A stretch of DNA of 64,000 bases, taken from positions 1 through 64,000 of IMG/VR virus record IMGVR_UViG_3300050821_004383; one strand, given 5' to 3'. Shown piece after piece: positions 13,330 to 34,541 of the stretch; position 1 is the stretch's first letter; each line of letters begins with the position of its first letter. This DNA is from a virus. The notes below the pieces were generated by a model. It saw only the letters and a program-made list of their open reading frames with translations, did not search any database and was not told the origin of the DNA. A program made the translations under genes and the position numbers.

Positions 13330-15626
13330 AGTCTCCACGGCCCTTTGTTACCGAAAACAACCATTCTTGGGTCCTTCGGCTTTTCAGGCTCCTGTGCTTC
13401 GGGTTCCGGTACAGTTACATCGCCCCGTTCACCTCTCACATACTGACGCCACGTTGGCGCGTGTACAGTAGGAGGCTGCTCGTGTCTTTGGCTATAAGGC
13501 GACCCGCCCGAGAACATTCGGTCGTACTGCATCTGCTTCAATTGTTTACGCTCGTACTCTTCTTGCGCTCTCTTCTCTTCTTCCGGGTCTACCCTGGATG
13601 CGGTAAACATTCTCTGGTCGAGGAGTCGAGTCGCTTGAGAAATAGCGTCTGGTATATCGTCTTTTCTTCCCTTCTTTGTCTCGCCCGTGAATCTCTCGAA
13701 CTGACGGTATAACTCGTCAATCCAAGGACCCGCGACGAAATGAAGGCGGTCATCCGCGAGCAAAATCTCCAAGCATTTGATTCTGTTTGATTTTGCGTTA
13801 AGCGTGTTTCCGGTTTCTACCCATCGGATGCTGCTCAAAACTTCCGGGCATCCATATCTGTTCGCGTAAGCAACCAGCACCAAGTTAAAGAGGTCGTGGC
13901 CTAATGATTTTTCAATCAAAGTTCTCGACGGTCTGTGCTTTCTTAAAAACAGCACTGTGTTATTGGCTAAGTCGGATGCCTTCCACTTATCGTAGTGAAC
14001 ATCCAAAACAACCAACTCTTGAGTGTTATCCGCTCGGGTGTGTATGCGGGATGCTGCTAGAACTGAAAAATCCGAACCCTTATTCTCTGAGTAAGCCCAG
14101 TCTAGCGTTACAACCACGTCTCCGGATTCAGGCGCGGCTGAGGCTCCGTAGGTGTGGGTGCGTAGAACTGCCTTCTCGAAGTGGACCGCTAGGTCGCTTA
14201 CTTCTATCGGGTCTGTTGCAATGTTCAAGTACTGGTTTTTGAAACCGCGCTCTTTGTACTCTTTCAGTTTGCTACGAAGAGCCTTCCAGTTCAGCTTGTA
14301 CGGGAACCACAAATCAACCATATCTTCTGTGACTTCGAAGACGCCGTTCGGCTTTTCCAGAAGTCGCTGATACTCTACTCTGAATTGCGACTTCGGTGTC
14401 CAGCACGAGAGGCACAGATACTTAAACGGTTCCGTCGAACTAACATCGTCCTCGTCAACCGCCTGACCCATGCGCCATCCGTACCAGTCTGTGGTGAAGT
14501 AGCGCGTACCGATAATGTCGGTGAATCCCCAACCCTCGACAAGAGCGTTGGTTGACTTAACTTTTTCTTTCAACTTCTCTCGAAGGTCTTCGTCCGCCGA
14601 GTTCTTGTCTTCTACGATATCGTCCAACTTTCTGATATCGCAGCGCTGTCCTACGAAAGACGAATCCAGCGACGTAATCCACACGTGCGGTTCTTTCGAG
14701 TTGAATAGCTGTGCTGGGCAAGTAATCGGCTGCTCAGAGCGGCCATCCACGCCCGTCAAAATATACTCTGGGAAGAGCATCTGAAATGCCGTCGGCTTTC
14801 CGCGCGGCGGCAGGTAAAAGTACTGCTTGACTTCTCCCATCAACTGATTCGATAGGCTCTTGACCGAAGTCATAATCATGACGCGAATGTCCGGGCAGTT
14901 CAACATCCACTGCACGGTATCCAGGCCGTCGATTGTAGACTTGTATCCGGAACGAGGAGCAAACAGCATCAGCGTGCGCGTCTCGGAGCCGTCTGCCGCG
15001 AAGCGCTGCTGTCTTCCGATTATGTCGTGCACGTCATCAAAGGTGCAGTCCGGGAAGTAGGCCCCATCAAAATTCTTCTGCACGAAGGCGTCGCAGATTA
15101 CCTGATGCGTGTCGTGAAACAGACTCTTTCCCACCAAGCGACCGAACCAGAACAGGTCCTTGCGTGCTTTGTCGCGCAGGTCAAGCCAATCTCGGAACGA
15201 GACAACCCGGTCAACTTCGAACGTCTTGCGATGCTCGATGTTGTTCGGGTCAATCTTGATGCCACCGATTTCGACGGCACGGATTTGAATCTTTTGCATA
15301 ACAGGAACCGGGAAGTTGCTTATCTTCTTTCCGGTCTTGTTATCCAGCTTCTCGTCTTCGTCGCTGATAATCGCAGAGGTTGCGCCCTCGTAAATAGCGA
15401 GCAACTGCACGGTGCTGCGGCACTCGCTCTTGTAGAAACGTCCGCTCTCGTCCAGTTCTTTTGCCCAAGCAAGATTCTCGTGATGCTCCTGCTCTCTTAA
15501 GGATTTTTCTGCTTCCTCGACAATAAGACTGGTTGTCGAGTAGGGTTCCGGCATACCCTTTTCACGTGCGCGTTTATTCGCTTGTCTACGACGGGCCGCT
15601 TCTCTTGACTGTTCTGCCGTTGCCAT
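13326..15626 (-). CDS. terL: Terminase large subunit
   Basis: This encodes 766 residues. The ATPase half carries an atypical Walker A, LFAPRSGYKST, near residue 225, followed by a DI/DIVED region about 340-350. The nuclease half has VTLDWAYSENKGSDFS (metal-binding Asp residues) and a later DDIPDAISQ Asp pair. The N-terminus is a basic helical extension. AGAGG precedes the ATG by about 6 nt. No separate small terminase was recognised nearby. Confidence 0.88.
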   Translation of the reverse strand: MATAEQSREAARRRQANKRAREKGMPEPYSTTSLIVEEAEKSLREQEHHENLAWAKELDESGRFYKSECRSTVQLLAIYEGATSAIISDEDEKLDNKTGKKISNFPVPVMQKIQIRAVEIGGIKIDPNNIEHRKTFEVDRVVSFRDWLDLRDKARKDLFWFGRLVGKSLFHDTHQVICDAFVQKNFDGAYFPDCTFDDVHDIIGRQQRFAADGSETRTLMLFAPRSGYKSTIDGLDTVQWMLNCPDIRVMIMTSVKSLSNQLMGEVKQYFYLPPRGKPTAFQMLFPEYILTGVDGRSEQPITCPAQLFNSKEPHVWITSLDSSFVGQRCDIRKLDDIVEDKNSADEDLREKLKEKVKSTNALVEGWGFTDIIGTRYFTTDWYGWRMGQAVDEDDVSSTEPFKYLCLSCWTPKSQFRVEYQRLLEKPNGVFEVTEDMVDLWFPYKLNWKALRSKLKEYKERGFKNQYLNIATDPIEVSDLAVHFEKAVLRTHTYGASAAPESGDVVVTLDWAYSENKGSDFSVLAASRIHTRADNTQELVVLDVHYDKWKASDLANNTVLFLRKHRPSRTLIEKSLGHDLFNLVLVAYANRYGCPEVLSSIRWVETGNTLNAKSNRIKCLEILLADDRLHFVAGPWIDELYRQFERFTGETKKGRKDDIPDAISQATRLLDQRMFTASRVDPEEEKRAQEEYERKQLKQMQYDRMFSGGSPYSQRHEQPPTVHAPTWRQYVRGERGDVTVPEPEAQEPEKPKDPRMVVFGNKGPWRL

Positions 15627-24609: not shown

Positions 24610-24684
24610 TGGTTCCGGCGTGTGGATTCGAACCACAATTAGCGGATTCAGAGTCCGCAGTCCTGCCAGTTAAACGACATCGGA
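24610..24684 (-). tRNA. tRNA-Gln (CTG)
   Basis: Anticodon arm GCGGA-CTCTGAA-TCCGC; TTCGAAT T-loop; encoded CCA; one acceptor mismatch. Confidence 0.85.
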
Positions 24685-24692
24685 ACAGAAAT

Positions 24693-24790
24693 TGGAGCGG
24701 TGTCCTCGTACTCACTAGAGCGATGGGGTCCTTCTCACCTAGGCACTCACCGCCGAGTGTACTCCCAGATTACCAGACCTACGATTACGA
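24693..24790 (-). other. Stem-closed tRNA-like spacer without canonical T-loop
   Basis: About 100 nt between two tRNAs, bounded by the same CCAATTT-type junctions. GCGGTG...CACCGC-T-CCA could form an acceptor-like end around 24695-24755, and CACTC...GAGTG gives another hairpin. No standard anticodon or T arm fits. A degenerate tRNA or a different small RNA. Confidence 0.3.
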
Positions 24791-24793
24791 AAT

Positions 24794-24869
24794 TGGTTGG
24801 ATGCGAAGGATTCGGACCTTCATCTGACTGATTCAAAGTCAGCCGTGTTGCCAGTTACACCAGCGTCCA
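24794..24869 (-). tRNA. tRNA-Gln (TTG)
   Basis: Anticodon loop CTTTGAA; T arm GAAGG-TCCGAAT-CCTTC; CCA encoded. Confidence 0.85.
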
Positions 24870-24878
24870 ACAGAAAAT

Positions 24879-24953
24879 TGGTCCTACACCGTGGAATCGA
24901 ACCACGTACGCCCGCCGTTTCAAGACGGCGCTCTACCAATGAGCTAGCGTAGG
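24879..24953 (-). tRNA. tRNA-Phe (GAA)
   Basis: Standard numbering with a 5-nt variable loop gives loop TTGAAAC, anticodon GAA; the anticodon stem has one G-T pair. T arm CGTGG-TTCGATT-CCACG; CCA encoded. Confidence 0.75.
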
Positions 24954-24954
24954 A

Positions 24955-25041
24955 TGGAGGAAGAAGATGAAATCGAATCATCAACCCGCTAGAGTTGGCC
25001 TAGTGTTCGAAACTAGTTGAGCGCCTTGCTCACCATCTTCC
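24955..25041 (-). tRNA. tRNA-Ser (CGA)
   Basis: Class II tRNA; anticodon arm CTAGT-TTCGAAC-ACTAG, long variable arm, T arm GATGA-TTCGATT-TCATC, CCA encoded. Its 5' 61 nt are also the 3' end of the HNH gene at 24981-25511. Confidence 0.85.
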
Positions 25042-25511
25042 AAAACTTTTCTACGAATACGGTCTTTGTAATTCTTCTCACACTCGATGCAATCACGACG
25101 AAGACCGTTCCAATTAGTTCTATTCTTTGCAAATCTATCAACAGAGAAGAACTGTTTATGTGTTCGACACCAAGCCTTGCCTTCTGGTGGTGTTATACGA
25201 TTACAACTGGGTTTTCCCAGTGAACCTTGAATGTGGGGTGTATTACAACGCGTGTGAGAAAATGTCACATTATCTAAATCCCAAAACAACTCAGGAGAGC
25301 GATTCTCCCAAGGACGAATGTGCTCAATACTCAAATCATCAACAGACTCAATCATCTTACCACACTTCACACAAACACTGTCACCGTATTTTTGTAATTG
25401 ACGAAACAAAATCATCTTACGAAGACGATTTGCCGCTGCTCCGTGGGACATACCAAGTTGTTCTGCAATTCTAGCACTGCGTGCTGCATGTGATGCGTGT
25501 GAGTTACCCAT
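24981..25511 (-). CDS. HNH endonuclease embedded in tRNA array (copy 1)
   Basis: This encodes 176 residues. ATG at 25511 (MGNSHASHAARS) is chosen for its AAAGGAG site; the longer frame runs through tRNA-Ser(TGA). The N-terminus has SHGAAANRLRK (basic, HTH-like). Then come CVKCGK, LSIEHIRPWENRSPELFWDLDN and SHTRCNTPH, the HNH/zinc core, and a second Cys cluster (WCRTHKQFF...CIECEK). Paralogues lie at 30072 and 33193. The last 20 codons lie inside tRNA-Ser(CGA). Homing or nicking of DNA is the family activity. Confidence 0.82.
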   Translation of the reverse strand: MGNSHASHAARSARIAEQLGMSHGAAANRLRKMILFRQLQKYGDSVCVKCGKMIESVDDLSIEHIRPWENRSPELFWDLDNVTFSHTRCNTPHIQGSLGKPSCNRITPPEGKAWCRTHKQFFSVDRFAKNRTNWNGLRRDCIECEKNYKDRIRRKVLEDGEQGAQLVSNTRPTLAG

Positions 25512-25551
25512 CGTCGTTGGCTCCTTTAAGCACTTGACTGATGTTTTCAAA

Positions 25552-25638
25552 TGGCGGATGATGAAGGAATCGAACCCTCTCGACCTTTCAGTCGGGACAG
25601 TTTTCAAGACTGCTGCTCCCCATGAAGCCCAATCATCC
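25552..25638 (-). tRNA. tRNA-Ser (TGA)
   Basis: Class II; anticodon arm CAGT-CTTGAAA-ACTG, variable arm CGACT...GGTCG, discriminator G, CCA encoded. Confidence 0.88.
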
Positions 25639-25646
25639 GTAAAAAT

Positions 25647-26003
25647 TTAGGCTACTTTCTTCGCCTTGCGAATCTTCAAATAGTTTCTCACAGGAAACGT
25701 CATCGTGCCCGCTGCGCATGCAAACGGAAGCCATGAGTGTGCCGCGTCAACCACGCCCGCGTATCCGGATGCTGCTAGAAACGCTAGCACGATTGCCGGA
25801 CGAAGGACCCCGGCGTCCAAAAACGTACGGAACGGGTGAGCCTTCTCGGTGAACCACTTCATCAATTTGTTGCCTTCGGTCTGGCCGTAGTACCAGATGC
25901 CCCAGCGGGTCACAAACACATCTGTCAACATCGCCACGTACCAAAGAACGGCAGCGAAGTTGTAAGTAAAGTCTCCGTTCGGAAGCGTGCGGGGGTCGAA
26001 CAT
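25647..26003 (-). CDS. Membrane protein, 118 aa
   Basis: ATG at 26003 has TTAGGAG 8 nt upstream; upstream in-frame codons are shadow. Three hydrophobic segments (about residues 17-38, 68-88, 92-110) and a basic C-terminus (RNYLKIRKAKKVA). Adjacent to and similar in design to the next membrane gene; possibly a paired membrane complex. No family recognised. Confidence 0.65.
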   Translation of the reverse strand: MFDPRTLPNGDFTYNFAAVLWYVAMLTDVFVTRWGIWYYGQTEGNKLMKWFTEKAHPFRTFLDAGVLRPAIVLAFLAASGYAGVVDAAHSWLPFACAAGTMTFPVRNYLKIRKAKKVA

Positions 26004-26011
26004 TCGGTCTC

Positions 26012-26323
26012 CTAAACTGGTATCTTCAAATTTCTGATAGCTTCTCTGATGTGCGCGTACCCGGCTTGAAATGCAAAGCCTGCTGCCATCACGTAGCCCG
26101 CGTAAACCGAGAAACGATTCGCTAACAACCCAACCGCAACCTCGCCCGCGATAACAAGAGTGCCCAAGCCATAAACCTTCAATGTGCTGGGTCTGGGTCC
26201 GAACAGCCACGCTGTGTCGGCTTCGTAGTAGTCCGGATTCTTCAAGAACCGAACTGTTGTCCATCCATCGAATAATGCCGCGCCGGATAAAACCACCGAC
26301 GCCACTACTAGTGGTATGTTCAT
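26012..26323 (-). CDS. Membrane protein, 103 aa, starting directly after a tRNA
   Basis: The ATG is 5 nt downstream of the CCA end of tRNA-Ser(GCT) (CCA-ATTTT-ATG) with no ribosome site, so the mRNA would be leaderless after tRNA processing. Three or four hydrophobic segments (MNIPLVVASVVLSGAALF; LGTLVIAGEVAVGLLA; GYVMAAGFAFQAGY). Function unknown. Its stop overlaps the ribosome site of the following membrane gene. Confidence 0.6.
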   Translation of the reverse strand: MNIPLVVASVVLSGAALFDGWTTVRFLKNPDYYEADTAWLFGPRPSTLKVYGLGTLVIAGEVAVGLLANRFSVYAGYVMAAGFAFQAGYAHIREAIRNLKIPV

Positions 26324-26328
26324 AAAAT

Positions 26329-26414
26329 TGGCGGAACGAGGAGGAGTCGAACCTCCACGTGCTTTCACACGCTGGTTTAGCAAACCAGTCCGGCTACCGT
26401 TTCGGCACCGTTCC
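26329..26414 (-). tRNA. tRNA-Ser (GCT)
   Basis: Class II; anticodon arm CTGGT-TTGCTAA-ACCAG, T arm GGAGG-TTCGACT-CCTCC, discriminator G, CCA encoded. Confidence 0.9.
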
Positions 26415-26457
26415 AGAAAATGTGGGGCGACCGGAGCCGCCCCGATTTTGTCTCAGA

Positions 26458-28140
26458 TTAAACCTCTACCGTAATACGAGGATTCGTCGGTGCGGCTGGT
26501 GGTGCTGGCGGCACGTTCGGTCCTGATGGCGGTAGCGATATCTGTACGCTTACCTCTGGCGGGTCTAGTGAAACCCACGTCACTGTGTTGTCCTGTGTGA
26601 TGGTATTCAACACTGGAGAGAACACTGGACGATGGGCTGCGTCACTGCTGATACCCGGAACAGAGACTTGCTGAAACGATTGGCTAACGCAATCGAATAC
26701 GATGTCCCCAACGTTGAACTGCTTGTTAGGAGCATAAACCGATAGCGTTGCGGATAAGAACATGACAACTGAATCAGTGTCCAGTGTCACTGCGCCTACG
26801 CGAGCCAGCAATCTGCCGTTGACTCTTACGCCCGTGTTAACGGTGATAGACGCTTGAGCCATGATTGTCCCGGAGAAGTTCGTTCCAACTCCGAGTGTTG
26901 CAGAACTGCCGACTTGCCAGAAAATGTTCGCCGCTTGTGCGCCGCCTAGCAATACGATGTTGCTGTTGCTAGCAGCGGTTGTAAGCGTTGAACCAATTTG
27001 AAAAATGAAAACCGCGTTCGGGTCTCCTAGTCCATCGAGAACCAGGGTCCCGGTGATGCCTACCGAACTTGCGTTCTTATAAACACCCGGTGTGAGAGTC
27101 AACCCGCCTAAATCACCCGGGAGAGCCGTGAACGGACTGCCGCTGGATGTGAGTCCAGAAGCCGATGCCGTTGCTGTCTCCGCCGTTGCTGCTGGGTTCG
27201 TCAACGTGATTGCTGTAATCGTCTGGGCTATGCAAACGAACGTTCCGTTGTTGGAAGCGTTAGTAAAGCCTGTGACCGTGAATCTTTGTCCAACTAGAGC
27301 GTTTCCTGCTGGGAAGGTTCCCACGTATGATGTATTTCCGAATGCGTCTGGTGCAGCAACGGAAGTTACAGGATACGGGCCTGTTGCAGAAAAACCGCCT
27401 ATGCCCGAAGGATTAACAGCGGATGCGGCTGCATTGTAAGCCGTTGTTAGTGCGGCCTGCGCTGCTGCTGCAACGAAGTCCCCGGCGTGAAACACGCCCG
27501 AGATTGCTGCTGGTGCTCCGAAACCAGTGATTGAAGTTCCCGGCCAAACTCCCACGTCACCCGCGACGGTTGTTGCGCCCGTGTTGGTGACAGTAGAACC
27601 TGCCAAGATTTCAAAACTGTTTGCCACTCCCACGTTTGGTGGGGTTGGGCTGGGACCGAACGGAACAGCGACGGAAAGAACGCCGACCGAGTTAGCACTT
27701 GAAATGCCGCCTGCGACCGATTCAATCTCGTAGCTGTAAACGTGGCCCGGGACAACTCCGAAATCCTCAAAGAACGGATTCGGTGTAGCAAGCGCCGAGT
27801 GTACCTCTGCGGTTGCGAACGAACTATTTAGTGTCAACGTTGTCGCAGAAGACGCGACGCATTGAAACTGCCCGTTGTTCGCGGAGTTACCGAAACCTGT
27901 AACGCGGAACACCAATCCTACGAAGGCGTTTGCTGCGCCACCGCTGATAACTCCAGTGTAAACGGCTTGACCGTTAGCGGACTGGGATACCGAGGATAAG
28001 ACGAGCGCTGGTCCTTGCTCAATCAGGCCAACGTTGTACGGAACTAAACTCTCATTTCCGGGTGCTGTACCACGGAAAATGTTGTAGCCATCGACCAGGG
28101 ACGGACTTGGGTCCCATGAGATGGTAATAGAATGTGTCAT
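26458..28140 (-). CDS. Fibre/adhesin with ice-binding-like (DUF3494) domain
   Basis: This encodes 560 residues from ATG 28140 with AAGGAG upstream. Residues 1-40 resemble a fibronectin III strand pair (ITISWDPSPSLVDGYNIFRG). One beta-module copy spans about 55-115. From about 175 the DUF3494 ice-binding-like pattern starts (FEILAGSTVTNTGATTVAGDVGV). It is interrupted by a second beta-module (about 265-330) and resumes with GGLTLTPGVY, DPNAVFIFQIGS, NIFWQVGSSATLG and VNGRLLARVGAVTLD. The C-terminus is Pro-rich. The family includes ice-binding and surface-adhesion proteins; here it probably decorates the virion. Confidence 0.75.
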   Translation of the reverse strand: MTHSITISWDPSPSLVDGYNIFRGTAPGNESLVPYNVGLIEQGPALVLSSVSQSANGQAVYTGVISGGAANAFVGLVFRVTGFGNSANNGQFQCVASSATTLTLNSSFATAEVHSALATPNPFFEDFGVVPGHVYSYEIESVAGGISSANSVGVLSVAVPFGPSPTPPNVGVANSFEILAGSTVTNTGATTVAGDVGVWPGTSITGFGAPAAISGVFHAGDFVAAAAQAALTTAYNAAASAVNPSGIGGFSATGPYPVTSVAAPDAFGNTSYVGTFPAGNALVGQRFTVTGFTNASNNGTFVCIAQTITAITLTNPAATAETATASASGLTSSGSPFTALPGDLGGLTLTPGVYKNASSVGITGTLVLDGLGDPNAVFIFQIGSTLTTAASNSNIVLLGGAQAANIFWQVGSSATLGVGTNFSGTIMAQASITVNTGVRVNGRLLARVGAVTLDTDSVVMFLSATLSVYAPNKQFNVGDIVFDCVSQSFQQVSVPGISSDAAHRPVFSPVLNTITQDNTVTWVSLDPPEVSVQISLPPSGPNVPPAPPAAPTNPRITVEV

Positions 28141-28334
28141 GAACTGCTCCTTGCACGCAATAAACTACATGCGCGTTGGGAGCAACGTGATACCCAGCTA
28201 GCTGACGCAACCACAATCCTGATTGTCGCACTCTATGGCGAGAGCGCGAGGACCGGACACATTCATTTTCAGTCACTTCCAAAGAAGTGAACCAAAAGGG
28301 AAGGAGGCTTTAACTCCGACTGACTACCTGATGC

Positions 28335-28439
28335 TTACTTCTTTGGATTACTTACACAAAATTTGCAAACTGGTCTTCTGTGAGGATGGCTGTAAATTAG
28401 TTCCTCTGCCAGTTTCTTGCATACGGGGCACATCTTCAT
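28335..28439 (-). CDS. Small zinc-ribbon protein, 34 aa
   Basis: ATG at 28439 sits 8 nt after an excellent GGAGGTGA site. MKMCPVCKK...PVCKFC gives two CxxC knuckles, a minimal zinc ribbon. The longer frame reads through tRNA genes and is rejected. Its place in the tRNA array suggests nucleic-acid binding, but this is inference. Confidence 0.65.
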   Translation of the reverse strand: MKMCPVCKKLAEELIYSHPHRRPVCKFCVSNPKK

Positions 28440-28533
28440 GGCTGTCACCTCCAGCCATAATACTACCACACCCGTGGTACCGCGTCTGTTCAATATTGGA
28501 CAGTACTGTTAATACAAGACACTTATCTAAAAT

Positions 28534-28609
28534 TGGCAGGTCATGAGGGATTCGAACCCCCACCGCATCGTTTTGGAGACGAGCATGCAACCAGTAACAC
28601 TTATGGCCT
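28534..28609 (-). tRNA. tRNA-Trp (CCA)
   Basis: Anticodon loop CTCCAAA; T-loop TTCGAAT; discriminator G; CCA encoded; one acceptor mismatch. Confidence 0.85.
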
Positions 28610-28618
28610 GTTGAAAAT

Positions 28619-28706
28619 TGGTGGAAAGTCGAGGACTCGAACCTCGGAAGCCCACAAGGGGCATCTGGTTTACAGCCAGAAGCAATTGCCGCTATGCGAA
28701 CCTTCC
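28619..28706 (-). tRNA. tRNA-Tyr (GTA)
   Basis: Class II; anticodon arm TCTGG-CTGTAAA-CCAGA; long variable arm; T-loop TTCGAGT; CCA encoded. Confidence 0.9.
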
Positions 28707-28778
28707 ACAATGCTAGTTGCGCCTCGGTGGCTCTATGGACTGCTCTCACCGATATGTTTAATGTCACAGCGCAAAACT
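28707..28778 (-). other. Stem-closed spacer RNA candidate
   Basis: TTGCGCT/GGCGCAA forms a 7-bp acceptor-like stem enclosing two hairpins (GACAT..ATATC and CGGTG..CACCG). There is no T-loop, anticodon arm or CCA, so it is not a normal tRNA. Confidence 0.35.
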
Positions 28779-28852
28779 TGGAGCCTCGTCGAGGAATCGG
28801 ACCCCGGCGTTCGCTTTACGAAAGCGACGTACTGCCACTATACTAACAAGGC
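28779..28852 (-). tRNA. tRNA-Thr (CGT)
   Basis: Anticodon arm TCGCT-TTCGTAA-AGCGA; T arm with TCCGATT loop; CCA encoded. Confidence 0.88.
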
Positions 28853-28861
28853 TCGGAAAAT

Positions 28862-28935
28862 TGGAGCGAAATGCGGAAATCGAATCCGCGCCTGGACCTT
28901 GGCAAGGTCCCGTTCTGCCACTATACCAATCTCGC
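28862..28935 (-). tRNA. tRNA-Gly (GCC)
   Basis: Anticodon arm GGACC-TTGCCAA-GGTCC; CCA encoded; good acceptor pairing. Confidence 0.9.
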
Positions 28936-28985
28936 CCAGAAAATTTGCCGACCGTATTAGCCGTTATACGGACCCAGGTTGTTGA

Positions 28986-29080
28986 GACCCAGGAGAGGAT
29001 TCGAACCTCAAATCGTCGGACTTCTCGGACGCGTGGCTGGCCGTGTCACAGCCCTTTGGACTCGCGCTACCCGATTAGTA
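28986..29080 (-). pseudogene. Degenerate tRNA-like element
   Basis: A canonical T arm GAGG-TTCGAAT-CCTC is followed by no CCA, and no 7-nt anticodon loop with U33 can be built. Hairpins GGCTG..CAGCC and CGTC..GACG suggest a decayed class II tRNA. Acceptor pairing is poor. Confidence 0.35.
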
Positions 29081-29081
29081 T

Positions 29082-29157
29082 TGGAGCACAATCGTGGATT
29101 CGAACCACGGTGACCGAGGTACAAGCTCGGTATATTGGACCGCTATATGAATCGTGC
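29082..29157 (-). tRNA. tRNA-Thr (TGT)
   Basis: Anticodon arm CCGAG-CTTGTAC-CTCGG; CCA encoded. Confidence 0.9.
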
Positions 29158-29158
29158 T

Positions 29159-29232
29159 TGGAGCTTCGACGTGGAATTGAACCACGACTTGTTCCTTACC
29201 AAGGAACCGTTCTGCCGTTAGACTATCAAAGC
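29159..29232 (-). tRNA. tRNA-Thr (GGT)
   Basis: Anticodon arm GTTCC-TTGGTAA-GGAAC; CCA encoded; 1 nt from the next tRNA. Confidence 0.9.
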
Positions 29233-29243
29233 TCGGAAATTAT

Positions 29244-29702
29244 TTAGGCGTGGTCACCCTTGTCGCCCTTATCGCCTTTGTCACCCTTGTCGCCACGGTC
29301 GCCCTTGTCTCCTTTATCACCCTTGGAGCCTACTGCGCCGTCCTTGCCATCGACGCCTTTATCGCCTGCGTCGCCCTTATCACCTTTGTCGCCCGGGTCG
29401 CCCTTCAAACCGTGTACGCCGTTCTCGCCTGGGTCGCCCTTGTCGCCCTTCAAGCCATGCTCACCGTTGGTGCCAGCATCGCCTTTGTCGCCCTTCGGGC
29501 CGACTGGGCCGGGTACGCCTTGTGGTCCCACAGGGCCTTGGAGACCTTGTGCGCCGACCGGACCCGCGATACCGCGCGGACCTAGAGGGCCTGCTTGACC
29601 TGCCGGACCTGCTGGTCCGACGTGCTTCTTCAAACTCAAAATGAATGCAGCTACAGACACTGCGGCTGTAACAGCAGAAACCAATTCAGCGGGGGCAATC
29701 AT
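29244..29702 (-). CDS. Membrane-anchored collagen-like protein
   Basis: This encodes 152 residues. ATG at 29702 has AAGGAG at 6-nt spacing; the ATG two codons earlier abuts the site. Residues 2-25 are a hydrophobic anchor ([19 protein letters not shown]) followed by KK. Residues 28-152 are uninterrupted G-X-Y, becoming GDK-rich toward the end. It differs from the other collagen-like gene by having a signal anchor, so it may be displayed on the infected cell or attached to a membrane. Confidence 0.72.
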
Positions 29703-29734
29703 TGGCATCTCCTTATTTTTAACTTCTACAAAAT

Positions 29735-29810
29735 TGGAGCGGCGAACGGGATTCGAACCCGTACGTTCTGCTTGGAAGGCAGACATGCTAGCCGTTAACA
29801 TCACAGCCGC
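29735..29810 (-). tRNA. tRNA-Gly (TCC)
   Basis: Anticodon arm TCTGC-CTTCCAA-GCAGA; T-loop TTCGAAT; CCA encoded. Confidence 0.9.
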
Positions 29811-29818
29811 TTTGAAAT

Positions 29819-29897
29819 TGGTTGCGGAGGTGGGATTTGAACCCACGATAACAAGGTTATGAGTCTTGTGTTTTAGACCAGGCTAAACTACCCCGCT
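29819..29897 (-). tRNA. tRNA-Met (CAT), probably elongator
   Basis: Anticodon loop CTCATAA closed by an A-C mismatch; T arm GTGGG-TTCAAAT-CCCAC. The A1-A72 mismatch is noted, but the anticodon stem lacks the three GC pairs of initiators. tRNA-Ile2 (CAT) cannot be excluded. Confidence 0.75.
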
Positions 29898-29907
29898 ATA
29901 GAAAATT

Positions 29908-29983
29908 TGGTTCTGGTCGCTGGATTCGAACCAGCTACCTTCCGCTTATCGAGCGGACGCCCGTCCACATGTGCTCGACCAGA
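29908..29983 (-). tRNA. tRNA-Ile (GAT) with C33
   Basis: Perfect acceptor TCTGGTC/GACCAGA; anticodon arm TCCGC-TCGATAA-GCGGA places GAT at 34-36 with C instead of the near-universal U at 33. CCA encoded. Confidence 0.75.
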
Positions 29984-29991
29984 ACAGAAAT

Positions 29992-30067
29992 TGGTGGACC
30001 GTTCCGGCTCTGCCCCGGACGCCTCGGAGGTGCAAGCTCCGCGTTCTCCTGAATGAACTAACAGCCC
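29992..30067 (-). tRNA. tRNA-Ala (TGC) with non-canonical T-loop
   Basis: Acceptor GGGCTGT, D arm GTTC..GAAC and anticodon arm CGGAG-CTTGCAC-CTCCG are standard. The T arm is TCCGG-GGCAGAG-CCGGA instead of a TTCRANY loop. CCA encoded; total 76 nt. Confidence 0.7.
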
Positions 30068-30071
30068 AAAA

Positions 30072-30491
30072 TCATCGTCCACGTTTAGTATCGTGGCACT
30101 CTTTACAGTTTATTTGAAACCCACTCCAACGAGTTTCTTTCTTATAAAAGTTATCCACCGGAAGAAACTGCTGATGACCACCGCACCATGACGTGCCTTC
30201 TGGTCCAACAAACTTTCGTAAACTGCCTCCGTGATGCACATGGGGACGATTACATTGTAAATGCGAGAACGCTATATTATCCAAATCCCAAAAGAGTTCA
30301 GCAGAACGACCTTCCCATGGAAGCTTATGCTCTATGCTTAACTCTTCTACGACTAAAATCTCTTTGTTGCACTTGAAACAAATATTTTCTTTCAACTTTT
30401 TCAAAAGATGAAACAAAATATTCTTTCTTAATCTTCCATTGGCCGTGCCGTGAGGCATGCCTAGCGTTGCAGCTTTCTGCGTATTACTCAT
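30072..30491 (-). CDS. HNH endonuclease embedded in tRNA array (copy 2)
   Basis: This encodes 139 residues from ATG 30491 with AGAGGG upstream. It shares with copy 1 an HGTANGRLRKNILF start, CFKCNKE, LSIEHKLPWEGRSAELFWDLDN, SHLQCNRPH, and a second Cys cluster (WCGGHQQFL ... CKECH). The stop lies 4 nt before the 5' end of tRNA-Ala. A free-standing homing-type nuclease is the likely role. Confidence 0.82.
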   Translation of the reverse strand: MSNTQKAATLGMPHGTANGRLRKNILFHLLKKLKENICFKCNKEILVVEELSIEHKLPWEGRSAELFWDLDNIAFSHLQCNRPHVHHGGSLRKFVGPEGTSWCGGHQQFLPVDNFYKKETRWSGFQINCKECHDTKRGR

Positions 30492-30529
30492 AATCGTTAA
30501 CCCTCTTTGGGTTGTTGATTAAGTTAAAT

Positions 30530-30606
30530 TGGTACTCGCGGCGGGATTTGAACCCGCGTTCTTGGCTTGAAAGGCCAGCGTCCTGGGCCGACTAGACGAC
30601 ATGAGC
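30530..30606 (-). tRNA. tRNA-Glu (TTC)
   Basis: Anticodon loop CTTTCAA; T arm GCGGG-TTCAAAT-CCCGC; CCA encoded; one acceptor mismatch. Confidence 0.85.
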
Positions 30607-30611
30607 ACTAC

Positions 30612-30684
30612 ATGCGCCGATACAATTCGCTTTTTGGGGAAGTGGCTTTATGCATTTATAGCCAATCCGATAATTGTATCGTAC
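30612..30684 (-). other. Stem-closed structured spacer
   Basis: A 9-bp outer stem GATACAATT/AATTGTATC encloses an inner hairpin TGGCT..AGCCA. It lies between two tRNA-Glu genes. No tRNA arms. Candidate small RNA or processing element. Confidence 0.4.
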
Positions 30685-30689
30685 GAACT

Positions 30690-30765
30690 TGGTAGCGTCG
30701 GCGGGATTTGAACCCGCGTGACCAGATTGAGAATCTGGCATCCTAGACCACTAGATGACATCGCC
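30690..30765 (-). tRNA. tRNA-Glu (CTC)
   Basis: Anticodon arm CCAGA-TTCTCAA-TCTGG; T-loop TTCAAAT; CCA encoded. Confidence 0.88.
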
Positions 30766-30773
30766 ACAGAAAT

Positions 30774-30866
30774 TGGTTGTCAGCCTCGGTGCCGACCCGA
30801 GTCGTCGCGCTAATCAGGCGCTCTCCTCGACTTATAAGGTCGAGCCGCATGCCGATGCTGCCGACA
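30774..30866 (-). tRNA. Class II tRNA with TAT anticodon (tRNA-Ile?)
   Basis: 93 nt. Acceptor TGTCGGC/GCTGACA, small D arm GCAT..ATGC, anticodon arm CTCGAC-CTTATAA-GTCGAG. A class II variable arm has stem GCGC..GCGC, and the T arm CTCGG-GTCGGCA-CCGAG has an atypical loop. CCA encoded. A long variable arm is not expected for Ile, so its charging identity is uncertain. Confidence 0.6.
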
Positions 30867-30872
30867 AAAGGC

Positions 30873-30950
30873 TGGGCCGACGGGGAATCTAACCCACAAT
30901 GGGGCAGCCTCTGGCGTTCCTTCCAGCGCATCCCATCACTCGTCCCAGAG
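30873..30950 (-). pseudogene. Probable tRNA remnant
   Basis: GGGACGA/TCGGCCC pairs as an acceptor with one mismatch and a TTAGATT T-loop-like segment is present. The T stem is only 3 bp, there is no U33-type anticodon loop, and the end is GCC rather than CCA. Confidence 0.35.
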
Positions 30951-30954
30951 AAAT

Positions 30955-31030
30955 TGGTAGCTCGTAAGAGAATCGAACTCTTCCTATCCGGGTGTAGGCC
31001 GGATGCATACGACCAGTTTGCTAACAAGCT
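30955..31030 (-). tRNA. tRNA-Val (TAC) with C33
   Basis: Acceptor AGCTTGT/ACGAGCT; anticodon arm TCCGG-CCTACAC-CCGGA gives TAC with C at position 33. CCA encoded. Confidence 0.78.
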
Positions 31031-31037
31031 ACAGAAA

Positions 31038-31154
31038 TCAACGGTGGTAATAATGAATCCAGAGAACCAGGGCACTCGCGCTAATCACTACCCCCAGGAT
31101 GTTGCACACTGTCCGTATCAGTGCCATCCACTGGTCGAATGTTAGCCTTTTCAT
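31038..31154 (-). CDS. Small membrane peptide, 38 aa, overlapping the 86-aa gene
   Basis: ATG at 31154 with AAGGA close upstream. MKRLTFDQW then a hydrophobic segment (VCNILGVVISASALVLWIHYY). It overlaps the end of the 86-residue membrane gene in another frame. Nested small membrane genes occur in phage lysis cassettes, but no holin or spanin family was recognised. Confidence 0.5.
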   Translation of the reverse strand: MKRLTFDQWMALIRTVCNILGVVISASALVLWIHYYHR

Positions 31155-31341
31155 TGTCCTTCTTCTTTGTTCTGGTCTCGTACCACTTTCTTCTCAACCC
31201 CAAGTATTCGAGTTGAGCCTTCAAACTTTCTTCCGCTGCGTGGCGCATCGCGCGGTCATCGCGCCAAATGCCCACCAGGAAGTACAACGCGACTAAGTCA
31301 ACTACCAACGCCGCAACCGAAGCTACGTTCGCTATAGTCAT
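31081..31341 (-). CDS. Membrane protein, 86 aa
   Basis: A single N-terminal membrane segment (VASVAALVVDLVALYFLVGIW) followed by a charged, partly coiled-coil soluble tail. It resembles an inner-membrane spanin or holin accessory in outline only. The ribosome site is weak. Confidence 0.5.
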   Translation of the reverse strand: MTIANVASVAALVVDLVALYFLVGIWRDDRAMRHAAEESLKAQLEYLGLRRKWYETRTKKKDNEKANIRPVDGTDTDSVQHPGGSD

Positions 31342-31435
31342 ATTCGCTCACAAAGTTGTGCCCCAACTAGTAACTTCAACAGACCGTCAGGGTCTTGCCG
31401 CGCGTATCTGCTAGTTTACTCGGCGCGGAAAAATT

Positions 31436-31511
31436 TGGTCGAGCGCCAGAGACTCGAACTCTGACCCTACCCGTTAAAAGCGGGATATGCTGCCCCTAAC
31501 ACCTGCACTCG
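31436..31511 (-). tRNA. tRNA-Lys (TTT)
   Basis: Anticodon loop CTTTTAA; T arm CAGAG-TTCGAGT-CTCTG; CCA encoded. Its 5' 45 nt overlap the end of an HNH gene. Confidence 0.88.
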
Positions 31512-31796
31512 ACGGTATTTCTTTGTGAAACTGTGTCCAAGCGCCTTAGTCAACTCTTCGTGGCACTCTTGACATTGCAGTTCACATTTCAAAACTTCTT
31601 TCCAAAACTTTTCATCTGAATACGAAGAACCATCAGCGAGTGTGAACTCTTTTGTTTCCGGGTCCTTGTGATGAAACTGTAATTCTTCTTGCGACCCGCA
31701 AGTCTCGCACCGCGTTCCAAGAAACATGATTGCGCGAATGCGACGAAGTTGCCAGCGGCGCTTCATGTACTCATTCATGTATTCATTTGTACTCAT
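31467..31796 (-). CDS. Small HNH endonuclease in tRNA array (copy 3, different subtype)
   Basis: This encodes 109 residues. CETCGSQEELQFHHKDP, then CELQCQECHEEL, form a compact HNH motif with Cys ligands, unlike the other three array nucleases. The first ATG is 6 nt after the CCA of tRNA-Lys(CTT) with no ribosome site. The last 15 codons lie inside tRNA-Lys(TTT). Confidence 0.75.
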   Translation of the reverse strand: MSTNEYMNEYMKRRWQLRRIRAIMFLGTRCETCGSQEELQFHHKDPETKEFTLADGSSYSDEKFWKEVLKCELQCQECHEELTKALGHSFTKKYRRVQVLGAAYPAFNG

Positions 31797-31802
31797 AAAA
31801 AT

Positions 31803-31879
31803 TGGTGCGCCGCCTCAGACTTGAACTGAGACCAAGCCTCCTTAAGAGGGAGGTATTCTGCCGCTCGAAATCGCAGCGC
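31803..31879 (-). tRNA. tRNA-Lys (CTT)
   Basis: Anticodon arm CCTCC-CTCTTAA-GGAGG; T-loop TTCAAGT; CCA encoded. Confidence 0.9.
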
Positions 31880-31889
31880 ACTGAAAATT

Positions 31890-32191
31890 ATTTGGTTGCG
31901 CTATAGCCCGGTTTCTGTCGAGGACGAACATTCCTCTAAGCACGCTACCCGCTCGTCATCCTGCTCAATAAGCAGTCAGAGCCTATTTGCGCTTGCACCC
32001 GTGTGGAGTGCCTTCGCTCGAATGAGGGTTTCCAACATGTGAAGATGGATAACCCTACGAAGCCTTACCCGAATCCTTGCGGACCCCGCATCTTCCACGG
32101 CACGGTGTTGAGATGTGACCGGAACTTCCTCGCTGACGTTTAGCCACTATCCGGACTCATACGCCATCGCGTTCGTCTACGCTACCAAAAT
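31890..32191 (-). ncRNA. rnpB: RNase P RNA (phage-encoded, bacterial type)
   Basis: The minus-strand RNA contains the conserved RNase P core. GAGGAAGTTCCGGT near the 5' side pairs with ACCGGGCT near the 3' end, forming P4 with the diagnostic bulged U. The 3' terminus reads GACAGAAACCGGGCTATAG, matching the bacterial consensus. GGGTAGCGTGCTTAGAGGAATG and ACTCCACACGGGTGCAAG...AAATAGG match the catalytic and specificity-side conserved blocks. The P1 ends TTTGGT/ACCAAA pair. About 300 nt, shorter than the 377-nt E. coli RNA. It would process the surrounding tRNA precursors with a host or unseen phage protein subunit. Boundaries are approximate. Confidence 0.88.
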
Positions 32192-32300
32192 TAATCCGGG
32201 GGAGGTTTTCGTTACCCGTCCCGGCACCCAAACGATTCGACTAGTCTACTTCGAGTGTTGCCCACAAGGGGCACCCCCGCACGTGTAGGGCCGACAAACT
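32192..32300 (-). other. Structured spacer between tRNA-Cys and RNase P RNA
   Basis: GGGGGTG/CTCCCCC can close an acceptor-like stem, with TTG-TGGG-CAA and GGT..ACC hairpins inside. There is no T-loop consensus or CCA. It could be a decayed tRNA or a leader of the RNase P RNA. Confidence 0.3.
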
Positions 32301-32377
32301 TGGACTCCTCGGCTAGACTGTAACTAGCTAAGAGCGGGTTTGCAATCCGCCGTCTCGACATCTTCGACATCGAGGAG
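32301..32377 (-). tRNA. tRNA-Cys (GCA) with atypical loops
   Basis: Perfect acceptor CTCCTCG/CGAGGAG; anticodon loop TTGCAAA; T arm GCTAG-TTACAGT-CTAGC lacks C56. The D-loop lacks the GG pair. CCA encoded. Confidence 0.75.
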
Positions 32378-32382
32378 AAACT

Positions 32383-32468
32383 TGGTGCGCCGCACAGGAT
32401 TCGGACCTGTACGCCATTTCTGGCCGGGGGTTTTAAGTCCCCTACGTCTGCCGTTCCGCCAGCAGCGC
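32383..32468 (-). tRNA. tRNA-Leu (TAA)
   Basis: Class II; anticodon loop CTTAAAA, GGCC..GGC variable arm, T-loop TCCGAAT, CCA encoded. Confidence 0.88.
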
Positions 32469-32522
32469 AATATCTACCCGGCTTGCTGTATATCCTTCAA
32501 CAGTGTTCGCCACCGGGAATCT

Positions 32523-32611
32523 TGGTCGCCCGCCCCGGAGTCGAACCGGGACTCTACTTTATTCGAACCGCGTTTTGAGTGCGGCGCGTCTGCCAGTTCC
32601 GCCAGCAGGCG
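32523..32611 (-). tRNA. tRNA-Leu (CAA)
   Basis: Class II; anticodon loop CTCAAAA; T arm CCCGG-TTCGACT-CCGGG; CCA encoded. Confidence 0.88.
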
Positions 32612-32613
32612 AT

Positions 32614-32688
32614 TGGTAGCCCATGAAGGACTCGAACCTTCATCGCTTGATTCGTAGTCAAGCATCCTATCCATTGAACGAACAGGCC
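32614..32688 (-). tRNA. tRNA-Arg (ACG)
   Basis: Anticodon arm CTTGA-CTACGAA-TCAAG; T-loop TTCGAGT; CCA encoded. A34 would need host TadA editing to inosine for wobble reading. Confidence 0.9.
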
Positions 32689-32698
32689 ACTGTAAAAT

Positions 32699-32776
32699 TG
32701 GAGGCCCCGGTCGGATTCGAACCGACTTTTGTACGGGTTAGAACGCCGTTGAGATATCCATTTTCTCGACGGAGCC
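32699..32776 (-). tRNA. tRNA-Arg (TCT)
   Basis: Anticodon loop GTTCTAA; T arm GTCGG-TTCGAAT-CCGAC; CCA encoded. Confidence 0.87.
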
Positions 32777-32785
32777 TCTGAAACT

Positions 32786-32872
32786 TGGTGGGCCGCGAGG
32801 GATTCGAACCCCCACGCTTTTCACGGCACTGGTTTCTAAGACCAGCATGTCTGCCAATTCCATCAGCAGCCC
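32786..32872 (-). tRNA. tRNA-Leu (TAG)
   Basis: Class II; anticodon arm CTGGT-CTTAGAA-ACCAG; CCA encoded. Confidence 0.9.
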
Positions 32873-33024
32873 ACAGAAATCCTGGCGGTATTTGTCATCG
32901 CGCCCCGCCGGAAGCGCATCGGATGATGTTTAGTCACCGAGAGTTTTGCCCCTTACCAGTGCACGAGGCCACGCACCCAGTAGCTAGCTGGGGATGTTTA
33001 ACTCTCTGTTGCAACGTCGTACAA
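32873..33024 (-). other. Structured non-coding spacer
   Basis: A 7-bp outer stem GAGAGTT/AACTCTC encloses CCCAG-CTAGCTA-CTGGG and a TGC..GCA hairpin. A CCCC/GGGG pair could form a pseudoknot. A second hairpin CATC..GATG lies 3' of it. No ORF or tRNA arms. Possible small regulatory RNA. Confidence 0.4.
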
Positions 33025-33027
33025 AAT

Positions 33028-33101
33028 TGGTCAGGAATCGTGGAATCGAACCACGGCCTCATGCTTCCGACGCACGTAGACTACCACTATCAGAATACCT
33101 G
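33028..33101 (-). tRNA. tRNA-Pro (CGG)
   Basis: Anticodon arm CGTGC-GTCGGAA-GCATG; T-loop TTCGATT; CCA encoded. Confidence 0.87.
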
Positions 33102-33110
33102 ACGTAAAAT

Positions 33111-33185
33111 TGGCTCCATCCCTAGGATTCGAACCTAGACCTGTTCGGTTAACAGCCGAGCGTCCTACCGTTGGACCAGAATGGA
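33111..33185 (-). tRNA. tRNA-Asn (GTT)
   Basis: Anticodon arm CTCGG-CTGTTAA-CCGAA; discriminator G; CCA encoded. Confidence 0.88.
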
Positions 33186-33192
33186 ACTGAAC

Positions 33193-33573
33193 TCAATGCC
33201 CGGTAGTTTGATATTTTATTCGACGACGTTCTGTTGTGTACACTTTTCTCATGTACCCAGCAACTTGTCCTCTTCGAACTCGTATCGCTTCTTCGGGCGA
33301 ATACTTTCTTCTAATTCGACGGGCATCTGTGTTGCAGGCTCTGTGACTGAAAGCGATGTTCTCCAAAGAGAAGAACACGGTCCTCGGGTCACTGCTGTGC
33401 AACCACGGCTCTTTGTGGTCTATCGAGAGGTCTCGACTTTCCGCAATTTGCTTACCGCATCGAAAACAAAAATCTCTTTTCACTTCCTTCACTAACCCGA
33501 AAAGAATTTCTTTTCTAAGTTGGTGACAGGCTGTTCCAAACGGAACACCTAATTGCTGTTGTTTCTTATCCAT
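33193..33573 (-). CDS. HNH endonuclease embedded in tRNA array (copy 4)
   Basis: This encodes 126 residues. LGVPFGTACHQLRKEILFGLV, CFRCGKQ, LSIDHKEPWLHSSDPRTVFFSLENIAFSH and CNTDARR match copies 1 and 2; the C-terminal Cys cluster is replaced by a basic tail. The AAGGAT site before the ATG lies in a perfect hairpin AACCATC/GATGGTT, which may restrain translation. The stop is 7 nt before tRNA-Asn. Confidence 0.8.
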   Translation of the reverse strand: MDKKQQQLGVPFGTACHQLRKEILFGLVKEVKRDFCFRCGKQIAESRDLSIDHKEPWLHSSDPRTVFFSLENIAFSHRACNTDARRIRRKYSPEEAIRVRRGQVAGYMRKVYTTERRRIKYQTTGH

Positions 33574-33589
33574 TCAAACCATCCTTTAA

Positions 33590-33668
33590 GATGGTTCGAA
33601 TCCGATACTGTACCAGCCACTCGGTTTAAGTCCGAGAACTTTTACAACCCGGGCGTTACTCCGGTGAA
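33590..33668. pseudogene. Scrambled tRNA remnant
   Basis: A T-loop sequence GG-TTCGAAT-CC occurs on the plus strand, opposite to every other tRNA. Next to it is a perfect anticodon-like arm CTCGG..CCGAG on the minus strand whose 34-36 would be TTA. No acceptor stem closes these parts. Confidence 0.3.
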
Positions 33669-33670
33669 AT

Positions 33671-33748
33671 TGGCGGTCCATACGGGATTTGAACCCGTGG
33701 TCTTCTCCGTGACAGGGAGACGAGGACTCCTGACTCCTCCAACAGACC
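33671..33748 (-). tRNA. tRNA-Asp (GTC)
   Basis: Anticodon arm TCTCC-CTGTCAC-GGAGA; discriminator G; CCA encoded. Confidence 0.9.
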
Positions 33749-33757
33749 GCAGAAAAT

Positions 33758-33836
33758 TGGTCGAGGAACCTGGATTTGAACCAGGGGTCTCATGCTTCCA
33801 AAGCACGCGGGAACGGCCAGACTTCCCCATTCCTCG
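33758..33836 (-). tRNA. tRNA-Pro (TGG)
   Basis: Anticodon arm CGTGC-TTTGGAA-GCATG; perfect acceptor CGAGGAA/TTCCTCG; CCA encoded. Confidence 0.9.
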
Positions 33837-33924
33837 AAAAATTTCTCGCTTTCCTCAGCGTCGCCACTTAAGGCTAGGTGGACTATCTGCGAGATGCTGA
33901 CCCGTCACTGGGCCACTTGATTCT

Positions 33925-33990
33925 TTAGTTGACCGTGTAAATGCCGGGTCCCATCGGTGTTGCTCGTCCCAAACTCTCTGTGTCTTTCAT
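33925..33990 (-). CDS. Leaderless 21-aa peptide ORF
   Basis: ATG at 33990 lies only about 10 nt past the -10 box, so the transcript would begin at or just before the start codon. The peptide is MKDTESLGRATPMGPGIYTVN. It may be a translated leader for the tRNA operon. The following 80 nt contain nested pairings (GTCAGC/GCTGAG, CTCGC/GCGAG). Confidence 0.4.
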   Translation of the reverse strand: MKDTESLGRATPMGPGIYTVN

Positions 33991-33999
33991 CGTGAAACC

Positions 34000-34028
34000 A
34001 TCCTAGCACAGTTCTCGAACTTTGTCAA
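34000..34028 (-). promoter_or_regulatory. Consensus promoter for the tRNA array
   Basis: Minus strand TTGACA (34028-34023), 17-nt spacer, TAGGAT (34005-34000). The same box pair and spacing as the 8358-8386 promoter. It drives the block from tRNA-Pro(TGG) leftward. Confidence 0.82.
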
Positions 34029-34047
34029 GCACTATTTTCGAGAATCT

Positions 34048-34362
34048 TTACTTCTTCGAATAAGCGCGGCCTGGGTAGTTACGAGCGTATGCGTGAGCGT
34101 CGTCTCCCGGCTGCTCGGTCTGCTTGCCGATGTGCTCCATGCTGCACGGCAATCCCTTGTGGGAACCGTTGGCGCTTACGCCCATCGAGTTCGAACGTCC
34201 GGCCTTCAATGCGGCTGCATCGTGAGAAGTCTCGTGACGAACCTTCTCGGCCTTGGGTGTGCTACGGCCTGGATACTTGTGCGCGTGCGGCTGGTCGTGG
34301 GTCATCACTGTCTCGGGTGCGTGGGCCATGCCCGCCGCTGTCTTTTCGCTGTACTTCGCCAT
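34048..34362 (-). CDS. Hypothetical protein, 104 aa
   Basis: Soluble, His/Lys/Ala-rich, with two similar segments HKYPGRST and RNYPGRAYSKK at about 28 and 95. Probably disordered. It sits between the two tRNA promoters. No family recognised. Confidence 0.55.
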   Translation of the reverse strand: MAKYSEKTAAGMAHAPETVMTHDQPHAHKYPGRSTPKAEKVRHETSHDAAALKAGRSNSMGVSANGSHKGLPCSMEHIGKQTEQPGDDAHAYARNYPGRAYSKK

Positions 34363-34424
34363 TTTCTCATTCCTCGCGTTGCCTCACCTTTCGGTACGGG
34401 GCACGCTTCGTACTTCTAAATTTT

Positions 34425-34501
34425 TGGGGTGGGTGATGGGTCTCGAACCCACTCTGGCCCGATTCACAGTCGAGCGCGTCACCTGTTTCGCCTCACTCAC
34501 C
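34425..34501 (-). tRNA. tRNA-His (GTG)
   Basis: Anticodon arm CTCGA-CTGTGAA-TCGGG; has the His-specific G(-1):C73 pair; CCA encoded. First tRNA of the array in transcription order. Confidence 0.92.
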
Positions 34502-34512
34502 ATCGTAGAAAT

Positions 34513-34541
34513 ACTCTACCACGGAAGCGGAGCGTTGTCAA
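34513..34541 (-). promoter_or_regulatory. Consensus promoter upstream of tRNA-His
   Basis: Minus strand TTGACA (34541-34536), 17-nt spacer, TAGAGT (34518-34513). The predicted start is 5-8 nt before tRNA-His. Confidence 0.82.

Follow-up and report, generated by a model that had tools for sequence, protein, structure and literature searches.

How does a phage that encodes tRNAs for all 20 amino acids have them matured, and what does it gain by carrying them? These questions are raised by a minus-strand array at 24610-34500 in a 64,000-nucleotide (nt) stretch of viral DNA, which corresponds to positions 1 to 64,000 of the 98.5-kilobase (kb) IMG/VR record IMGVR_UViG_3300050821_004383 and is hereafter called the window. 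By combining ARAGORN, Rfam and fold/synteny evidence, we count 33 tRNA genes in this array, the number given in the initial annotation. What that annotation overlooked, and what is the main point of the locus, is a gene for an RNase P RNA that lies among the tRNA genes, between tRNA-Cys(GCA) and tRNA-Lys(CUU). Few ribozymes are as old or as nearly universal as RNase P, which is seen as a cellular housekeeping enzyme.

The gene, a divergent bacterial type A RNase P RNA of 301 nt, occupies 31888-32188 on the minus strand. In a sensitive Rfam scan of the array, it gave a full-length match to RF00010 (RNase P RNA class A; model positions 1-367, 92.5 bits, E 1.5e-27), with an E-value lower than that of any tRNA. 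Because this score is under the RF00010 gathering score of 100 bits, the window copy is missed by a default Rfam scan; among the seven relatives that carry the gene (see below), G005 and G006, whose copies are identical, exceed the gathering score with 102 bits. The elements P1-P5, P8, P9, P11, P12, P15-P17 and J18/2 are all present, and in 11 of 13 copies of the window type the 3' end reads ACCA, resembling the tRNAs. Judged on structure, it is nearly certain that 31888-32188 encodes an RNase P-type RNA. We do not claim membership of standard type A, because three tested features depart from it, i.e. the gathering score, the CR-II/CR-III stretches and a GGU in L15.

To this match can be added a record of compensatory change. 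Thirteen distinct phage copies were cut into helices P1, P2, P4, P5, P8, P9, P11, P15 and P17, and pairs were counted on a helix-only alignment. The 3' strands of P1 and P2 were placed by best match, the other seven helices were anchored on conserved letters, and one copy (G042) was cut by hand. In these copies, 97.3% of the helix cells are paired, versus 29-37% when the partners are slid by 1-3 columns. Both sides have changed in 36 of the 51 pairs, where shuffling gives 19.0; covariation scores 0.603, versus 0.192 when shuffled, and none of 500 shuffles reached any of the observed values. Paired cells amount to 88.5% in P1 and 100% in both P2 and P4, compensatory changes included. The bulged U of P4 is kept in 13/13 copies, pair 67/358 is G-C, A-U or C-G, pair 71/355 is C-G, A-U or U-A, and pair 68/357, G-C in E. 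coli, is U.G or U-A here. The CR-I positions 67 and 68 differ from AG yet stay paired with compensation. Of the universally conserved letters of CR-I, CR-IV and CR-V, GAGGAA, CAAAUAGG and ACAGAA are kept, although copies found by motif share that motif by construction and the pattern used to scan for some of them included GAGGAA. On comparative sequence grounds, this pattern is that of a working RNA's evolution and not that of a relic.

Is the gene a fixture of this phage group? Using the terminase large subunit (window 13329-15626), we collected 35 related viral contigs, 36-75% identical. RF00010 was found in seven of these, and many of the rest are short fragments. All seven have large tRNA arrays, with 16-20 amino-acid types as assessed by ARAGORN alone, and share a rough gene order: His ... 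Leu/Arg ... Cys, RNase P RNA, Lys, Val, Ile, Glu, Ala, Ile, Met, Gly, Thr, Tyr, Trp, Ser, Phe, Gln. The RNase P RNA lies between Cys and Lys in most of them and adjoins a Ser tRNA in G009 and G039. Conversely, two partial contigs with few tRNAs lack an RNase P RNA: G001, whose terminase is 73% identical to that of the window, has four tRNAs and no such gene over 75 kb, and G025 has three tRNAs and none over 82 kb. Of the tRNAs in these two, three lie upstream of the terminase gene, like the window array. Calls of transfer-messenger RNA in some relatives overlap called tRNAs and were judged false. The closest named terminase relative, Tunturiibacter phage Tunturi_3, is only 27% identical and does not settle the host.

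Scans with exact core motifs extended the group. The phage-type core motif picked out 14 viral contigs, of which seven were new, and, in an 84,980-species genome collection, a single stretch. That stretch lies on a contig of 99.9 kb that has a tRNA array and belongs to an archaeal assembly. Given its length and its array, this contig (L250) looks like a mis-binned phage, and we rejected it as evidence for an archaeal host because it is phage-like. In the archaeal assembly LFW-28 (G086), C59, and perhaps C38, resembles a phage contig, and both carry RNase P RNA matches.

RNase P RNA is not confined to this clade. The canonical bacterial core motif GAGGAAAGTCCGGRC matched 116 viral contigs, and RF00010 was confirmed in 37 of 50 viral contigs tested (seven of the window's type), 23 of them above the gathering score. 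These 23 are on contigs of up to 463 kb; the phage status of the large contigs rests on the IMG/VR classification and on their arrays. In 15 of 24 neighbourhoods (four being of the window's type), at least eight tRNAs are found no more than 1.5 kb from the RNA and on its strand, and in 11 of these 15 the nearest tRNA is less than 10 nt away. In G049, G052 and G053, tRNA-Cys immediately precedes the RNase P RNA, an arrangement shared with most members of the window's clade. Canonical-type RNase P RNAs were seen inside same-strand tRNA arrays on many other viral contigs, 22-463 kb in length (L224-L242, L247-L248), and some of them measure only 207-243 nt (G082, G072 and G074). No tRNA is nearby in six contigs. 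Three of these are short (G084, G063 and G046), and some such short contigs may be host DNA. The others are large viral contigs (G047, 372 kb; G068, 268 kb; G069, 202 kb) that carry an RNase P RNA with no tRNA within 1.5 kb; these may be phage-borne or host DNA. One terminase family was above cut-off in G081, G082, G068 and G063. Terminase_6N was tried as a hallmark of large contigs and set aside as uninformative: just 5 of 35 gave a match, and the clade of the window, with a terminase that this model fails to recognise, gave none.

The protein partner and the named phages were searched as well. No match to RnpA (PF00825) was found in the 43 phage records searched. RF00010 was unmatched in 13 named phages (XacN1, CcrColossus, Atu_ph07, CBB, KVP40, T5, SCTP-2, Tunturi_3, Mwe-JY26, Pan1, R5C, Domovoi and Lacusarx), under stricter filters that weak matches could escape. 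Searching plasmids by blastn with the RNase P RNAs gave no match. The same search against named phages returned CAKLQF020000022.1, labelled Acinetobacter phage MD-2021a, which looks mislabelled because bacterial chromosomal genes (coaD and a ferredoxin gene) lie beside the rnpB-like match; the other matches were only a Salmonella record and unannotated gut scaffolds, and none was retained.

How sound are the tRNA genes that surround the RNase P RNA? ARAGORN makes 30 calls in 24610-34500, every one on the minus strand, and zero in the remaining 34.5 kb of the virus record. The Rfam tRNA model adds Ala(UGC), absent from the ARAGORN calls, at 37.2 bits. Cys(GCA) and Ile(UAU) are called by neither program, and both fold as cloverleaves at the places where related phages have an ARAGORN-called Cys or Ile(UAU). 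The Rfam tRNA gathering score (29 bits) is reached by 27/33 genes. On the tRNA set, the initial annotation is confirmed. Ser(UGA) scores best with the tRNA-Sec model (43.1 bits), and Ser(CGA), Lys(CUU) and Leu(CAA) are called by ARAGORN alone. All 33 genes have a T-stem of 5 base pairs, and 27 have a strictly canonical T-loop. CCA, which had been reported for nearly all of the genes, is in fact encoded by every one (33/33). The features of functional tRNA genes (cloverleaf, CCA, an anticodon per amino acid) are therefore found in this array. If U34 wobbles four ways, 99.7% of the codons in 66 phage genes can be read, CGG being the sole codon left unread; strict wobble lowers this to 86.2%. Such breadth, with all amino acids and almost all codons covered, agrees with the earlier view that the set goes beyond codon-bias compensation. 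In the only Met tRNA, positions 1 and 72 are mismatched but the anticodon stem lacks a run of G-C pairs, so that it may be an initiator or an elongator. Four gaps considered as extra tRNAs (29015-29080, 28708-28780, 24687-24770 and 30869-30945) were rejected, having no tRNA-like fold and z-scores of -1.2 to +0.6.

The array begins with tRNA-His(GUG) at 34425-34500, followed by Pro(UGG) and Asp(GUC) (33671-33836), Asn(GUU) and Pro(CGG) (33028-33185), and a group of five, Leu(UAG), Arg(UCU), Arg(ACG), Leu(CAA) and Leu(UAA) (32383-32872). The upstream neighbour of the RNase P RNA, tRNA-Cys(GCA) (32301-32377), pairs at 7/7 acceptor and 5/5 T-stem positions, has an atypical T-loop, and corresponds to an ARAGORN-called Cys at the matching place in G013, G020 and G033. 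The spacer between the two (32189-32300, minus strand) has a pseudoknot-like element, CGTT-(stem)-AACGAAA-(stem), with its core at 32207-32234. This element recurs upstream of the RNase P RNA in 7/13 clade members with varying stem letters, and may belong to transcript processing. A gap of 8 nt separates the RNase P RNA from the downstream Lys(CUU) (31803-31879), and Lys(UUU) (31436-31511) and Val(UAC) (30955-31030) follow. Next is Ile(UAU) (30774-30866), with a long variable arm and an atypical T-loop; its ARAGORN-called counterparts in G005, G020 and G033 are flanked by Glu and Val. Beyond it lie Glu(CUC) and Glu(UUC) (30530-30765), Ala(UGC) (29992-30067), which has an atypical T-loop and, read from the sequence, a G3:U70 pair, and then Ile(GAU), Met(CAU) and Gly(UCC) (29735-29983). 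The array ends with Thr(GGU), Thr(UGU), Gly(GCC), Thr(CGU), Tyr(GUA) and Trp(CCA) (28534-29232), Ser(GCU) (26329-26414), Ser(UGA) (25552-25638), and Ser(CGA), Phe(GAA), Gln(UUG) and Gln(CUG) (24610-25041).

A consensus scan placed two promoter-like sequences on the minus strand. One, TTGACA-17-TAGAGT, has a TG preceding its -10 and stands at the head of the array (34513-34541); the second, TTGACA-17-TAGGAT, is at 34000-34028. The region has nine such sites versus 7.7 expected by chance, so the one at 34513-34541 is supported by its position only.

We consider it likely that the array is a phage tRNA operon with its own RNase P RNA, which probably partners with host RnpA and matures the phage tRNAs. 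Phage promoters (the promoter-like sites at 34541 and 34028) would drive long tRNA precursors, the RNase P RNA being co-transcribed with them. The phage RNA would then act as a catalyst with RnpA, presumably that of the host since no phage copy was found, to cut the 5' leaders off phage tRNAs, and host exonucleases would trim the 3' ends back to the encoded CCA. The outcome would be a near-complete supply of elongator tRNAs independent of host rnpB, and so of a host whose tRNA maturation has been turned off, degraded or saturated. The phage might profit from it wherever the tRNAs or the RNase P RNA of the host run short, are destroyed or become saturated. On a wider proposal our judgement is evenly divided, namely that several phage lineages carry the RNase P ribozyme in large tRNA operons as a widespread, unrecognised strategy, and that in the window's clade a rebuilt specificity domain and CCA contact let it mature phage tRNAs, those with atypical T-loops included, independently of host RNase P RNA, as part of a takeover or replacement of the host tRNA supply.

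Several observations weigh against such a maturation role. Phages with a full tRNA set such as XacN1 manage without an RNase P RNA. In the Rfam alignment of the window copy, the CR-II/CR-III stretches (ACAGNRA, GUGAAA) are deleted, which points to a rebuilt specificity domain, and in 13/13 copies L15 has no GGU for pairing with CCA, though all the window tRNAs encode it. Substrate recognition may therefore differ from that of the bacterial enzyme. The specificity region of the clade instead consists of compact helices, with a conserved L8 (UGGAAG-UG), a P9 with a GNRA-type loop, and P11/P12. Some other phage copies retain the canonical CR-II/III stretches, and GGU in L15 is also missing from some bacterial lineages.

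What would make such a supply worth carrying? Tentatively, and with somewhat less than even confidence, we suggest that the unit counters host defences that cleave tRNA (anticodon nucleases, VapC, PARIS, tail-cutting Cas12a3), all tRNAs being resupplied and the RNase P RNA sustaining the rate of maturation. This would be a reason for the proposed operon and not a different molecule. There is precedent for phage tRNAs evading such defences (PMC10264068, PMC11555353), and several tRNAs in the array have atypical T-loops; set against this, repair genes and a defence partner were not seen among the scanned proteins, in which RNA ligase, RtcB, CCA-adding enzyme and tRNA synthetase are all absent. 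By analogy, escape from tRNA-cutting defences is a plausible purpose. The initial annotation had suggested replacement of host tRNAs, for example after anticodon-nuclease attack. The linked RNase P RNA points to autonomy from the host tRNA supply and to that extent favours replacement, whereas the sequence gives no sign of such an attack.

The RNA might also be a decoy that binds host RnpA, displaces host rnpB RNA and stalls host tRNA maturation, while the phage uses stockpiled or differently matured tRNAs. The lack of RnpA in these phages and of the usual conserved stretches in the specificity domain would fit, and the kept J18/2 and P2/P3 region could still occupy RnpA. We think this unlikely, since the catalytic core (P4, the bulged U, ACAGAA), needless for a decoy, is under strong selection, and the gene sits among tRNAs and is missing where tRNAs are few. 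It is equally improbable that the array is codon-bias compensation grown large, with the RNase P RNA a by-product of gene capture from hosts. Such compensation is documented for phage tRNAs, e.g. in XacN1 (PMC5852040), and all these genes occur in cells too, but the set is near-complete and not skewed to few codons, and an RNase P RNA that is diverged yet structurally constrained in 13 phages is not a recent capture. A selfish origin, in which HNH homing endonucleases move tRNA-rich DNA from phage to phage with the RNase P RNA as a passenger, has a concrete basis in the three clear free-standing HNH endonuclease genes of the array (minus strand; 24981-25511, Pfam HNH E 2.8e-5; 30072-30491, E 2.6e-6; 33193-33573, E 2.1e-6) and a weaker, probable one (31467-31796, E 0.024). 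We nevertheless regard it as very unlikely, because gene order is largely kept over diverged phages and the RNA has evolved by compensation, which shows that the cargo is under selection. Finally, a bacterial rnpB in a chimeric or contaminated contig can practically be dismissed: some array-less matches in the viral collection (G084, G085 and G063 among them) do resemble bacterial rnpB in score and could be host DNA, but the window-clade gene recurs within the tRNA array across many independent contigs, and the sole stretch with its core motif among the species genomes is itself on a contig with a tRNA array.

Other genes lie in and around the array. A protein with an ice-binding-like domain (26458-28140, minus strand; Pfam Ice_binding E 1.3e-58) and a collagen-repeat protein (29244-29702) are encoded inside it. 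On the plus strand of the window are genes for a T5-like DNA transfer protein A1 (49380-51038) and a deoxynucleoside monophosphate phosphatase (51927-52490), which suggests that this phage, unlike T5 in other respects, has take-over genes of the T5 kind. Elsewhere in the record are a nicotinamide/nicotinate phosphoribosyltransferase-like protein (L005:2790-4325, record 82790-84328; NAPRTase E 9e-31), possibly an NAD+ supply gene, and a tyrosine-recombinase domain (L004:16835-17731, record 79835-80734), making integration possible.

If the proposed role is correct, phages take over tRNA maturation besides tRNA supply, small and rebuilt RNase P RNAs that vary naturally (207-358 nt) become available for enzymology, and the reason for phage tRNAs, in question for 50 years, becomes testable by deletion of one linked gene. 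In the open-licence literature, we came across no phage or other virus reported to encode an RNase P RNA, so an earlier description is possible; a look into a survey of huge phages (PMC7162821) gave none either.

With bacterial type A RNA (RF00010, rnpB/M1), the phage RNA has in common the P1-P5, P8, P9, P11, P12, P15-P17 architecture, the P4 pseudoknot with its bulged U, GAGGAA, CAAAUAGG, ACAGAA and the J18/2 AGA-GAAUG. Window-type RNAs, of 260-334 nt, are 49-55% identical to E. coli M1 over aligned columns and, unlike bacterial type A, are phage-encoded, lie inside a tRNA array and come without RnpA. Among phages, Xanthomonas phage XacN1 has 56 tRNAs for 20 amino acids (PMC5852040), like the window phage in dense arrays; unlike it, XacN1 has no RF00010 match and encodes protein genes for tRNA maturation instead. 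Anti-defence phage tRNAs (PMC10264068, PMC11555353) resemble the window array in replacing or outlasting host tRNAs, although RNase P, which distinguishes the array, is not mentioned in PMC10264068. The closest published idea is that of the theta (HDV-like) ribozymes found beside phage tRNAs, which are likewise phage-encoded and proposed to mature phage tRNAs. Theta ribozymes self-cleave, acting in cis at the tRNA 3' end, whereas RNase P acts in trans on 5' ends (PMC10879173).

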